Below are positions 44,286 through 48,821 of a stretch of 64,000 nucleotides of DNA, in pieces (position 1 is the stretch's first letter; each line of letters begins with the position of its first letter). The translations under genes and the position numbers were made by a program. Under the pieces are notes generated by a model. It had not been told where the DNA came from. It saw only the letters and a list, made by a program, of their open reading frames with translations, and ran no database searches. Source of the DNA: Paenimyroides ummariense (GTDB lineage Bacteria; Bacteroidota; Bacteroidia; Flavobacteriales; Flavobacteriaceae); contig NZ_FOVI01000009.1 of assembly GCF_900115115.1 (NCBI RefSeq), positions 62,001 to 126,000 of the forward strand, in the 5' to 3' direction.

Positions 44286-44807
44286 ATGAAATTTTTAAAA
44301 TACGCACTTTTCACCGTTTTGGGTTTGATCGTATTAGCACTTGTTGTTGCAGCCTTTGTACCTAAAACATTTCATGCAGAAGGTTCGGCAGTTATCAACA
44401 AACCTAATGCCGATGTTTTCAACTATGTAAAACACATTAAAAACCAGGAAAATTTTGGCGTTTGGTTTGAGCAAGATCCGAACATCATAAAAACTTCAGA
44501 AGGAACCGACGGAACTGTTGGCTTTAAATACAGCTGGAAAAGTGAAGAAGTTGGTAATGGATCGCAGGTAATTACAAATATTGAAGAAAACAAACGTGTT
44601 GATATTGATTTGTTTTTAATGGACAGCACTGAACCTGCAAAATCGTTTTTTACAACAGAAGCTGTTAGTGAAAACCAAACTAAAGTTCGTTGGGTGGTTG
44701 ATGGCGAAATGCCTTATCCGTTTAACTTAATGAGCCTTTGTTACGACATGAACAAAGACTTTGTTCATGGAACCGCAAATTTAAAAGCAGTTTTAGAAAA
44801 GCAGTAA
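44286..44807 (+). CDS. SRPBCC-family (polyketide cyclase-like) protein
   Basis: 173 residues. N-terminal membrane anchor (about 6-26, ALFTVLGLIVLALVVAAFV), then an SRPBCC/START-like domain with FHAEGSAVINKPNADVFNYV and GFKYSWKSEEVGNGSQVI. Such domains bind hydrophobic ligands or act in stress responses. Partner of the VOC gene by position only. Confidence 0.85.
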   Translation: MKFLKYALFTVLGLIVLALVVAAFVPKTFHAEGSAVINKPNADVFNYVKHIKNQENFGVWFEQDPNIIKTSEGTDGTVGFKYSWKSEEVGNGSQVITNIEENKRVDIDLFLMDSTEPAKSFFTTEAVSENQTKVRWVVDGEMPYPFNLMSLCYDMNKDFVHGTANLKAVLEKQ

Positions 44808-44858: not shown

Positions 44859-45917
44859 TTACTTCTTTATCAACTTTTTAACGGCTAAACCTTCGTTAGT
44901 TTGTATATGCAACATATAAGTGCCGCTTGCCAAGTTCTCTACATTTAATTGTATTTGGGTTTCGTTGTTAAAACTTTGGGTGTTTAACTGTTTACCGCTG
45001 ATATCATAAACAGTAACTTGTTGTACAACCATATTTTCGCTGTTGGTTATGTTTACTAAACTTGTCACCGGGTTTGGGTAAAGATTAAACTTAGTAGCTA
45101 ATTGTTCGTTTACGCTTAAATTTATAACCTCTGGTGGTACCGCCGCTAATGCCGTTATTTTAATATTATCGTACCGGTTACGTGTAACCGTTTGTGGATT
45201 TTGAGTGCTGGTAGTAAAACCTGCAATCAATGAAATAATCGAAGGTTTATAGTCTTCTATAAGGTTGGTTGAAGGATCGTTCTTTAAAAAATCGCTTACA
45301 AAAACTTTATTCAAAGAAGGTATTTCAAAATAAACTTTTCTATTGGGATAATCTAAATAGGCAGTAAGCTTTACCCAGGTATTAAAAGGTAAAAATGTAT
45401 TTTGTTGAACAGGAGTGGTACTTGAAACAAACTCGGTGGAACTCGCAATGCTTCCATCTTGTTTATTATAGTCAAAACGACATAAAAAAGGAGGATTAAT
45501 CAAGCCTCCTTCAACCTCTCCAACCGGTATTAAGTTTATCCATGAACTACTACTGGCATTCGCCTGTATAGATCCTGTAAAATAATCTATTTCAAATTTA
45601 ATCACATCGTTACCCGGGGTACGGTTGTCTATCACTTGATCAATACCGGGTTTAAATGCAAGCAAGCTTTCGCTATGTGATAGGGCAGTAATATCTAACA
45701 CCTTACCCCGATTGGCTTCGTTCACTATGGTAAAAAAAATGTTGGTTTGTGTAATTTTAGATTTGGTGACCCACCCCCATTGCCCGGGTATGGTGCCGGT
45801 AAAATCGGTCCCTAAGGTACCTACACTGTGATTGTCAAAATTTTCGGTGTATACTACTTGACTATTTGCGGTAAGGGTTACTGAAAAATATACTAAAAAA
45901 AACAGGTGCTTTTTCAT
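44859..45917 (-). CDS. Type IX secretion substrate with C-terminal sorting domain
   Basis: 352 residues. Signal peptide (about 1-19, cleavage near ANSQ), a beta-sandwich-like region (about 24-250, VVYTENFDNHSVGTLG), then a type A T9SS sorting domain of about 75 residues with the PNP motif (FNLYPNPVTSLVN), VYDISGKQL and the SGTYMLHI strand, ending in LAVKKLIKK. It is therefore secreted or attached to the surface by T9SS. The N-terminal domain is not identified. It lies downstream of the G-tract lipoprotein gene, with a hairpin between them. Confidence 0.88.
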   Translation of the reverse strand: MKKHLFFLVYFSVTLTANSQVVYTENFDNHSVGTLGTDFTGTIPGQWGWVTKSKITQTNIFFTIVNEANRGKVLDITALSHSESLLAFKPGIDQVIDNRTPGNDVIKFEIDYFTGSIQANASSSSWINLIPVGEVEGGLINPPFLCRFDYNKQDGSIASSTEFVSSTTPVQQNTFLPFNTWVKLTAYLDYPNRKVYFEIPSLNKVFVSDFLKNDPSTNLIEDYKPSIISLIAGFTTSTQNPQTVTRNRYDNIKITALAAVPPEVINLSVNEQLATKFNLYPNPVTSLVNITNSENMVVQQVTVYDISGKQLNTQSFNNETQIQLNVENLASGTYMLHIQTNEGLAVKKLIKK

Positions 45918-45971: not shown

Positions 45972-47039
45972 TTATCTACCGGTTACATTTAAATACAATG
46001 CCGAATTTACCCAGCCAGTTTGTCCTGTTGCGGAAAACCCTAACCTTAATTTATAAGTACCATCAATATCTACTTCATGGGGTACCATAGGTACATCAAA
46101 AACCACCTCACGGGAATTACAAAAATTTTCATCAGAAAGACGCGTTATATCCCAATCTGTTTTACCAGGTAATGGCATCGTATCATCATAAAAATAATAC
46201 AATGGTACAGTGAAACCTAAAGTTGGCACGTCTGCATACACGTGATTACCTGCCAAATAATCAACAGGTTTCCAGCCAGCATCTATATCGTCAGGAATAC
46301 CTGAAGGTAGAGTTTTTATTTCAGGATGCATTAAGGTTGAAAGCACTAATGCATTTGTAACTTTATCTGTCACATACACTTCATAAAAAAATATTTTACC
46401 ATAGTGTGCTAGTAACTCTCTTTCTTGGGGTAATAATGTACCCGCCTGATCAAAGTTAGTATGAGGCGGTGGGTATTTTGGCCCAGCTGGAGTTACTCCT
46501 GATAGTGGTAAATGTAACAACTTATCTTCGATACGGAATGAATAATGAGGATCTGGATAAGCAGGTACATCAATAGGTACTGGTATTCTTACCAGATTAC
46601 CAACTTCATGACCGTTTGCGTACAGATTTGGGTAATTTCCAGAAGTTAAATCATGAATAGGCGGAGCTCCAACTTGTGCTACGTCATGAAATTGTCCATC
46701 ATCTGTTCCGTCAAAATAAGCTATACCTGCATAGGCAAAAACGCGTATATTGTAGGGCGTAACATCTTCAACGTTTCCGTTTGAAAAGAAATAAGAGGGT
46801 TGAAGGTCATTTATTCCATTAACTGTAGCGCCCCTAAACCAAATATCCCAAGGTGAAATATAATTTTTACCCCACCATCCTATACCTCCTGGTCCATACC
46901 CAGCATATTGACCACTATCACCGTTGTTAAAACTGTTTGTTTGGTATTGGGAACCTGCTTCTTCGTTTTGCATTTCAGCTTCCTGATAAACGTCTTCGCT
47001 ACACGCTGTAAGGGTTAGGCACATTACCCCCCCCCCCAC
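45972..47039 (-). CDS. Predicted surface lipoprotein, signal peptide interrupted by a poly-G tract
   Basis: The main frame (355 codons from a GTG) begins inside a G tract and contains VMCLTLTACSEDVYQEAE: a lipobox LTAC followed by acidic residues as in surface-exported Bacteroidota lipoproteins. The real ATG is at 47062 and encodes MTKFTKILWGGG, but with 11 G it runs into TAA. With 12 or 9 G the ATG joins the main frame and gives a full lipoprotein signal peptide. As read, the gene is off. The mature part (about 340 residues) is Gly/Tyr/Pro-rich with metal- or sugar-binding-like loops; I recognise no family. Followed by a T9SS substrate gene. Confidence 0.75.
   Translation of the reverse strand: MGGGVMCLTLTACSEDVYQEAEMQNEEAGSQYQTNSFNNGDSGQYAGYGPGGIGWWGKNYISPWDIWFRGATVNGINDLQPSYFFSNGNVEDVTPYNIRVFAYAGIAYFDGTDDGQFHDVAQVGAPPIHDLTSGNYPNLYANGHEVGNLVRIPVPIDVPAYPDPHYSFRIEDKLLHLPLSGVTPAGPKYPPPHTNFDQAGTLLPQERELLAHYGKIFFYEVYVTDKVTNALVLSTLMHPEIKTLPSGIPDDIDAGWKPVDYLAGNHVYADVPTLGFTVPLYYFYDDTMPLPGKTDWDITRLSDENFCNSREVVFDVPMVPHEVDIDGTYKLRLGFSATGQTGWVNSALYLNVTGR
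47027..47037 (-). repeat. Poly-G tract (G11) in the lipoprotein signal-peptide region
   Basis: 11 consecutive C on the plus strand (G on the coding strand) in a genome otherwise poor in G/C runs. Tract length modulo 3 decides whether the ATG at 47062 reads into the lipoprotein frame. Confidence 0.9.
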
Positions 47040-47228
47040 AAAATTTTGGTAAATTTTGTCATAAATAATATTTTTTAATTAATTGTATTGTAAATATAAT
47101 AAAAATTTTAACACAGTGTTAAATAAATTTTAAGAAAGAAAAGTATCTGCTTAAATTAACAGCAGAATATTTTAAAAATTAGCCAGGTACTCATTTATCT
47201 TTTTATTTTTGTGCATTATTATATTTGT

Positions 47229-48821
47229 ATGAAACTGAAAGTAAATAAATACCTGGCTTTTATAGCACTAACCTCTTTATCTTTAATATCGTGTGCGGTA
47301 CAGCAGCAGCAAAAACCTACAAAAGTTACGGTTGTAAAAAGTTCTGAAATAGAACCTGTAACCAAAACACCACAACCTGTTGCACAACCAGCAACAACTA
47401 ATGATTTAAAGATTAATTTACCCGAAGTTAAACGCGAATTTCGCGCTGCGTGGATTGCCACGGTTGCCAACATCAACTGGCCAAGCAGAAAAAATCTATC
47501 TACCGAAGAACAGAAAAACGAAGCCATTAAATTGCTCGATTTATTACAAGATGCTAATTTTAATGCAGTAATTTTTCAGGTTCGTCCGGCTGCCGATGCC
47601 TTATACAAAAGTAATTACGAACCTTGGTCGTGTTATTTAACCGGCGAAACCGGTAAAGCACCTTCACCTTATTACGATCCGTTAGAATTTTGGATAGAAG
47701 AGGCGCACAAACGCGGCATGGAACTGCATGTTTGGCTGAATCCTTATCGTGCGCACCATTTAAGCGGTGGATCGGTTAGCAGTGAATCAATGGTTAAAAA
47801 ATCGCCAAGCAATATTGTACGCCTAAAGAATGGTATGTATTGGTTCGATCCGGCAAGCGTAAAAACCCAAGATCACGTTTCTAATGTGGTAAAAGATATT
47901 GTGTCGCGTTACGATATTGATGCGGTTCATTTCGACGATTATTTTTATCCGTATGCATCGTACAACGGTGGTGCCGATTTTCCTGACACTGCTTCGTGGA
48001 ATACTTACAAAAATGCTGATGGAACACTTTCAAAAGCCGATTGGCGCAGAGATCACGTTAATAAATTCATTGAACGTATCAACAAAGAAATCAAGCAAGA
48101 AAAACCGTATGTTAAGTTTGGTATCAGTCCGTTTGGAATCTGGAAATCGGGTTATCCTTCGGGGGTTGTTGGATCTTCTCAATACGATGAATTATATGCC
48201 GATGCCAAATTATGGTTGAACAAAGGCTGGGTTGATTATTTTTCGCCTCAATTATATTGGCCGATCAATTCACAACGTCAGAATTTTCAGGATTTATTGG
48301 AATGGTGGCAGGATGAAAACACTATGAACCGACATTTATGGCCGGGTTTAAATACGGTTGAAGTGAAAGCAGCTAACAGATCGACCGAAATTGTAAATCA
48401 GGTAAAAATTACTGCTGACGTTTTAAGTAAAAACAGCGTGGGCGCGATACATTACAGTATTGCAGGCTTAACAGACAACAGCGAAATGATTCCGGCATTA
48501 AAAAATGGTCCGTATAAAGAAAAAGCGTTAATTCCATTGAGTCCATGGATAAAGATCAATAAAATTGCAACTCCATCTTTAAATATTAGCAACGATAATT
48601 CTTCTATAAATGTAAATTGGTCAAGCAGTAAATTGAATGATGCTTTTCAGTGGGTTTTGTACACGCGTTACGATAACGAATGGCAGGTTGAGATCCTTCC
48701 TAAAAATCAACTAAGTAAATCTATTGTTCGATCTAAAAACGGAAAAAACTGTAACACTGTAGCCTTAAAAGCGATTGATCGTTTAGGTAACGAAAGTGAT
48801 TACGCTGCCAAAAAAATATAA
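47229..48821 (+). CDS. GH10-like (DUF187-type) lipoprotein
   Basis: 530 residues from ATG 47229 (MKLKVNKYLAFIALTSLSLI); a GTG at 47211 is less likely. Lipobox LISC anchors it. The catalytic-like barrel (about 60-400) has the family stretches FRAAWIATVANINWPS, NAVIFQVRPAADALY, VHFDDYFYPYA and DYFSPQLYWP, matching the glycosyl hydrolase-like 10 (PF02638) group that includes YngK. The Asp pair in HFDDYF is the likely catalytic or binding acid. A C-terminal fibronectin-like domain follows. The substrate may be a cell-wall or envelope glycan. A TATTTTTG core lies at 47204-47211. Confidence 0.9.
   Translation: MKLKVNKYLAFIALTSLSLISCAVQQQQKPTKVTVVKSSEIEPVTKTPQPVAQPATTNDLKINLPEVKREFRAAWIATVANINWPSRKNLSTEEQKNEAIKLLDLLQDANFNAVIFQVRPAADALYKSNYEPWSCYLTGETGKAPSPYYDPLEFWIEEAHKRGMELHVWLNPYRAHHLSGGSVSSESMVKKSPSNIVRLKNGMYWFDPASVKTQDHVSNVVKDIVSRYDIDAVHFDDYFYPYASYNGGADFPDTASWNTYKNADGTLSKADWRRDHVNKFIERINKEIKQEKPYVKFGISPFGIWKSGYPSGVVGSSQYDELYADAKLWLNKGWVDYFSPQLYWPINSQRQNFQDLLEWWQDENTMNRHLWPGLNTVEVKAANRSTEIVNQVKITADVLSKNSVGAIHYSIAGLTDNSEMIPALKNGPYKEKALIPLSPWIKINKIATPSLNISNDNSSINVNWSSSKLNDAFQWVLYTRYDNEWQVEILPKNQLSKSIVRSKNGKNCNTVALKAIDRLGNESDYAAKKI

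Follow-up and report, generated by a model that had tools for sequence, protein, structure and literature searches.

Within the window, by which we mean the whole 64,000-nucleotide stretch of DNA analysed here, a run of 11 G residues lies in the signal-peptide codons of a putative surface lipoprotein gene. This run very probably serves as a slipped-strand (replication-slippage) switch of the lipoprotein, with probable effects on the partner gene behind it, and it is part of cassettes that appear to recombine. As we read the sequences, gaining or losing G units would decide whether the start codon and the lipoprotein body share a reading frame, so that any one copy could be expressed in part of the cells and silent in the rest. 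The partner gene would probably be affected as well, through operon polarity. Recombination would diversify the lipoprotein bodies and the partner domains between sites and species, with the leader and the sorting domain staying conserved. The presumed gain would be a variation of the surface that is met by phages, by predators or grazers, or by hosts, or a variation of attachment.

On the plus strand, the run reads as 11 C, and it is the sole run of at least 8 G in the window. Overlapping G8 matches numbered four, compared to a mean of 0.22 in shuffled sequences, and four or more were reached in 1 of 100 shuffles. The frame from the ATG on the minus strand reads MTKFTKILWGGG and meets a TAA directly behind the run. 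The long frame behind the run carries the lipobox LTAC followed by SED and stays open to the end listed in Table 1, giving a body of 343 aa counted from the Cys. Judged by this reading frame, the window copy is off as assembled. The preliminary description, made from the sequence alone, had called the run striking, had followed the ATG through MTKFTKILW into the run and on to the TAA, had placed a lipoprotein signal and SED in the long frame behind it, and had considered the gene off as read, all of which agrees with the present analysis. A GTG at position 47039, on the edge of the run, opens the long frame at 11 G; we regard it as unlikely to be the working start, since its product (MGGGV...) has, as judged by eye, no positively charged signal-peptide start.

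Table 1. Features of the locus, in window coordinates
Feature	Position	Strand	Basis
11-G run in signal-peptide codons, proposed slipped-strand switch	47027..47037	-	same position in 28 leaders
Leader ATG start (MTKFTKILW)	47060..47062	-	ATG 23-26 bases ahead of the run in 28/28 leaders
TAA that ends the ATG frame just behind the run at its length of 11 G	47024..47026	-	
Putative surface lipoprotein, open frame, 355 codons from GTG	45972..47039	-	family alignment A1
Mature lipoprotein start, Cys codon	47001-47003	-	
Promoter-like box TTATATTTAC, core TATATTTA	47090..47099	-	core in 28/28 aligned leaders
Palindrome TTTAACANNNTGTTAA, possible operator	47107..47123	either	
Partner gene (T9SS cargo of 352 aa), separated from the lipoprotein gene by 54 bases	44859..45917	-	
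Partner residues 17-259, predicted concanavalin A-like lectin/glucanase sandwich	45141..45869	-	model and fold comparison
Partner C-terminal sorting domain (T9SS type A)	44868..45083	-	Pfam and NCBIfam
Flanking gene marking the site	44286..44807	+	relative flanks a family copy in G027 (L052)
Flanking GHL10 gene, other side of the site	47211..48821	+	relative also in G027 (L052)

The lipoprotein belongs to a gene family whose carrier group is Paenimyroides-like. A protein search of 60 genomes (the window's own and relatives) found five copies each in the window's own genome (G000), G022, and G027, and none in the other 57. When a 17-row alignment was searched against 398 genomes of the genus, 15 matched, seven of them strongly and eight weakly; at most five candidates were scored per genome, so the copy numbers are lower bounds. 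The strong matches were G000 and its relatives G022, G027, G196, G228, G284, and G299, which make up the seven family genomes. At the 13 weak loci inspected, there was no G run of five or more near the start of the long frames. Among 397 genomes of the taxonomic family, evenly drawn from 237 genera, only G000 matched (1 of 237 genera), and a scan of named genomes gave six loci, five in Paenimyroides viscosum YIM 102796 and one in a Myroides metagenome-assembled genome. G000 itself contains at least five family copies, of which four have G runs, and behind each copy stands a gene whose product ends in a T9SS-type tail.

Database searches placed the lipoprotein in no described family. The window protein had no significant Pfam match, and the same held for all 17 alignment members, the one DUF4223 match standing at E 0.036. 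NCBIfam gave no significant relative for three lipoproteins, a PDB sequence search gave nothing significant (one match at E 0.91), a plasmid search gave no significant relative of the lipoprotein, and PADLOC gave no significant match to either window protein, lipoprotein or partner. A fold assignment from a structure model was rejected, as the model was too poor (mean pLDDT 43.7). By eye, the family has an LTAC-type lipobox Cys behind the signal peptide, a residue that the leader pattern described below itself demanded. Among the partner-adjacent rows that start at the Cys (25 of 29), D stood at +4 in all 25 and S or T at +2 in 24. From these acidic residues behind the Cys, surface export of the family lipoproteins would be likely. 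The lipoprotein export signal reported for F. johnsoniae has polar and then acidic residues after the Cys, SDDFE (PMC5080379), to which the family residues are similar, not identical.

To compare the leaders, we searched the family genomes with a pattern of four G, TART, up to 12 bases, and CTTRCNGCNTGT, which includes the Cys codon. It occurred at 28 places, in 7/7 family genomes, and the reversed-pattern control had 0 matches in all seven. The leaders share one layout of an ATG, about eight codons, the G run, and the lipobox. The run lengths were 5 G (one leader), 6 G (two), 7 G (two), 8 G (11), 9 G (five), 10 G (six), and 11 G (one), and there are two leader types, each with a different in-frame length modulo three. 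Seven copies are in frame and 21 out of frame, where one third in frame would be expected at random (binomial p 0.43). The body is open in 18 of the 21 out-of-frame copies, with 296–346 aa from the Cys; the other three are the first L147 copy and two copies of G299, a genome in which the body is gone behind all four leaders.

The preliminary description had weighed a real switch against a homopolymer read error and had proposed a comparison of tract lengths across related genomes. This comparison, with 5–11 G at a shared position in the 28 leaders from seven genomes, both frames represented and 18 of 21 bodies open, supports the switch. Homopolymer runs of such length are error-prone, and a single base decides the frame of the window copy, as would suit read or assembly errors in genes that are truly in frame and unswitched; on the other hand, the runs stand at the same codons in seven assemblies, and 13 of the out-of-frame copies have runs of 6, 7, or 8 G, lengths that pose less difficulty in sequencing. 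A lone read error cannot account for runs that recur at one position in seven genomes, for conserved bodies of off copies, and for near-identical cassettes that differ in their runs. We give hardly any credence to truly in-frame, unswitched genes, although any single run length may still be off by one.

Closely related copies show how the runs behave relative to the genes. In G196, L143 and L148 are identical at 1044 of 1050 bases behind the run and have 10 G and 8 G, respectively, with differing upstream flanks; L146 and L147b, in the same genome, are identical at 1028 of 1031 columns, the former with 10 G (off) and the latter with an interrupted run (in frame). At a site that is orthologous between two species, L149 (G284) has 8 G and is off, and L154 (G228) has 9 G and is on. 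The site of the window copy, recognized by the same neighbours on both sides, holds a family gene with 10 G in G027. As far as these comparisons reach, the runs change faster than the genes, for which slippage would be the likely cause. The part behind the run gave dN/dS values (Nei-Gojobori) of 0.18–0.45 in 13/13 pairs computed (both bodies longer than 250 aa, dS 0.02–1.2, some members shared between pairs), and in nine of these pairs both copies are currently out of frame. In dead genes, dN/dS would approach 1. Because 18 of 21 bodies are open and dN/dS is this low, the off copies are not dead genes, and their bodies appear to be kept functional while off.

The same figures bear on a decaying family in which frameshifts at the G runs are dead ends. 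All four G299 leaders are bodiless, and three in-frame copies elsewhere are cut by a stop or an apparent insertion, as decay would predict; the dN/dS range, with its nine pairs of out-of-frame copies, the 18 of 21 open out-of-frame bodies, and two intact in-frame copies make decay a very improbable account. The intact in-frame copies are L145 (G196) and L154 (G228), 2 of the 7. In the other five, a TAG stands just before the G run (L046 and L159), a TAA follows after 35 codons (L041, in the window's own genome), the gene is apparently cut near its C-terminus by an insertion, with the missing end matching about 1 kb further on (L050), or the lipoprotein body is lost (L160). Damage was thus found in 5 of 7 in-frame and 3 of 21 out-of-frame copies (Fisher p 0.0095), or in 3 of 5 and 1 of 19 when G299 was left out (p 0.018), a difference noticed post hoc, with counts entered by hand and copies that are related and not independent. 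The excess gives a hint of some disadvantage of being on among clones that were sequenced.

Several observations count against the switch. Only 2 of 28 run-bearing copies are both intact and in frame, several paralogues have no run, and G9 runs also occur elsewhere, in 52 of 150 genomes of the genus. The paralogues that are intact without a G run are L044, two copies in L048, L152, and L155, and interrupted G runs that are in frame were found in L147 and L151. The preliminary description had held that relatives with an intact gene lacking any G tract would speak against its reading. Such relatives do exist among the paralogues, but they represent different copies of the family and resemble members fixed in the on state.

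A switch in the genome would be unnecessary if the G run were a site of transcriptional or ribosomal slippage that yields some full protein at any length. Constant low-level rescue of this kind would also explain why out-of-frame copies are conserved; yet a programmed site should keep both its length and its frame relation constant, and here the runs vary from 5 to 11 G and differ between near-identical cassettes, and two copies with interrupted runs are in frame. We consider such a slippage site unlikely, and the reading as a replication-slippage switch is the one followed below.

Runs of at least 9 G were absent from 98 of the 150 genus genomes mentioned above. The seven family genomes contain 27 distinct runs of this length, 12 in the lipoprotein leader and 15 outside it. 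Those outside comprise one in a partner gene (G027 C23), six in another T9SS-sorted family (assigned by tails or likeness, with PF18962 tested on L174), one in signal-peptide codons of a short gene that precedes T9SS-sorted genes (G027 C3), two in housekeeping-like genes, two outside clear genes, and three that were not read. Most of the runs that were read lie in or near genes of exported proteins, not all of them. In the second T9SS-sorted family, at L056:4937 and 8531 (G022), L174 (G284), L163 (G228), and L164 (G196), a run of 9–12 G stands at the same codons (QAIGGG), with frames both open and broken, so that on the sequence pattern this family is probably phase-variable too; a related gene at L162 (G284) carries 11 consecutive C on the coding strand. 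The 9-G run at G027:C3:52715-52723 (L018, L055) lies in a short gene before three T9SS-type genes, and with nine G the frame from the start is interrupted. In the window's own genome, a 13-G run in a short open frame closes off a contig (G000:C19:53-65, L045), and the assembly may have broken there because of a switch. The runs at L167 (G228:C86, G9) and L173 (G299:C1:1533475, G10) are inside long frames that resemble housekeeping enzymes by eye, indicating that not every G run is a surface switch.

The gene behind the lipoprotein had been described beforehand as T9SS-exported, and its C-terminus bears this out, with matches to Pfam PF18962 (Por_Secre_tail; E 1.2e-16, 61.1 bits against a cut-off of 27) and TIGR04183 (E 1.2e-15, 57.2 bits against a cut-off of 23). 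The T9SS domain was likewise detected in the partner of L145. The structure model of the window partner, built from eight sequences, has a middling mean pLDDT of 67.3, with residues 116–177 below 50. Foldseek gave a best E of 2.2e-7, and the best VIA row (6t2o) had Z 15.4 and rmsd 3.1 over 201 aligned residues. The best 50 VIA rows ran from Z 15.4 to 14.1 with GH16 enzymes and legume lectins mixed, and these rows speak for a common fold only, a family missing from the list meaning nothing. From the model, the partner is predicted to have a concanavalin A-like sandwich; a PDB sequence search gave nothing at E 0.01. The GH16 motif is E-x-D-x(1,2)-E. It had no match in 29/29 partner middle parts scanned, some of them fragments, and because of this absence the partner, as modelled, probably binds sugar rather than cleaves it. 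The window partner thus resembles T9SS type A cargo of the concanavalin A-like kind in its sorting domain and predicted sandwich, and the partners differ from GH16-type cargo of this kind in lacking the GH16 motif.

By regular expression, a gene with the same tail was found within 2.6 kb of 29 family bodies, with and without runs, in a set that took only bodies having a downstream tail gene. The adjacency would fit co-transcription with the lipoprotein. Two or three partners stand in tandem at L047, L048, L049, and L053. In G299, a partner gene or its remains lies near the bodiless leaders (L157–L160), and partners there seem to outlive lipoproteins. The identity matrices of lipoproteins and partners were correlated, with r 0.86 over 29 pairs (0/2000 permutations), rows that include fragments (L041, the first copy of L147, the L148 partner, L153, and L161), and with r 0.75 over 20 representatives (0/5000 permutations). 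Strict co-evolution of the two proteins was nevertheless rejected as an explanation: the genes are adjacent and linkage explains the correlation, and at the L149/L154 site the N-terminal part of the partner differs while the lipoprotein is a patchwork.

The cassettes are mosaic. Measured per 100 bases, identity at the L149/L154 site is 88–99% over the last 900 bases upstream; it varies in patches from 58 to 97% across the lipoprotein, the next 800 bases, which cover the N-terminal part of the partner, fall to 43–64%, and identity comes back up to 66–90% over the sorting domain. Exchange between conserved ends would leave such a pattern, and strong diversifying change could give a similar picture. 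The best match of the window protein in G027 (59%) lies elsewhere in that genome, while its counterpart at the shared site in G027 has 34% identity over residues 2–240. Beside a potassium-transporter-like gene (named by eye), a family copy or its remains is found in 7/7 genomes, and another chromosomal site is shared by copies in four genomes. At L047, L048, and L143 (G022, G196), family genes are flanked or separated by genes that resemble transposases by eye (MAKVTFKNQTGNSPE...) and that may help in moving cassettes.

The region upstream of the leaders is conserved as well. The core TATATTTA sits a little downstream of a palindrome, TTAACA-N3-TGTTAA, which is imperfect in some copies, among them two of four run-bearing leaders in G000 and both in G284. 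All distinct sites of the perfect TTTAACANNNTGTTAA precede family genes in G000 (2/2), G022 (4/4), and G196 (7/7), and neither of the two sites in G284 is at a known family gene (0/2); the copies bearing the palindrome share ancestry, and their sites are not independent. As controls, G010 had one site and G013 none, and the reversed pattern matched 0–2 times per genome. From this distribution, a regulator common to the family genes is plausible, with TTTAACANNNTGTTAA as its candidate operator.

Beyond the switch itself, these elements might form a combinatorial system of surface variation, in which operons of a poly-G-switched lipoprotein and a matched T9SS lectin share an operator and are re-assorted by recombination. 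Each lipoprotein would anchor or match its own T9SS-secreted lectin, and every cell would carry a different lectin set. We put this forward tentatively, as a possibility that we would not ourselves back at even odds.

Phase variation in Bacteroidota is known mainly as DNA inversion. The invertible promoters of Bacteroides (capsule, SusC/SusD) resemble the present family in producing surface phase variation within the same phylum, and differ in working by site-specific inversion, not homopolymer slippage. A review mentions Bacteroides mainly in connection with inversion (PMC11868660) and nowhere uses the words Flavobacter or Capnocytophaga. Homopolymer phase variation in Flavobacteriaceae was absent from the matches listed in our literature searches, whose scope left subscription journals mostly outside, so that this is weak evidence of absence. 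Within these limited searches, homopolymer switching in Flavobacteriaceae looks new, and the gene family and its T9SS link look new, with a mechanism known elsewhere. If the switch is real, homopolymer slippage would control a surface-lipoprotein family with several copies and a link to type IX secretion, in Flavobacteriaceae that are not known as notable pathogens, and these bacteria would maintain a repertoire of surface lectins switched at random. Such a repertoire could explain why phage sensitivity or attachment varies among cells of one clone, and run lengths in reads would offer a simple sequence test for any isolate.

In other phyla, slipped-strand switching has long been known. The Vlp, P78, and Vpma families of mycoplasmas likewise comprise several switched surface lipoproteins. 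For p78 of M. fermentans, a surface lipoprotein, switching by frameshifts in a poly-A tract is cited (PMC3711429). The present family differs from these in its poly-G run within the signal peptide and its outer-membrane T9SS setting, and no homology is claimed. The poly-G/C contingency loci of Neisseria, Campylobacter, and Helicobacter belong to other phyla, and the family studied here is set apart from them by a body that lacks a Pfam match and by its T9SS-sorted lectin-like neighbour. What it has in common with these loci is a long G run in the coding part of surface genes, several such genes per genome, run lengths that differ between copies, and the reading frame as the switch.
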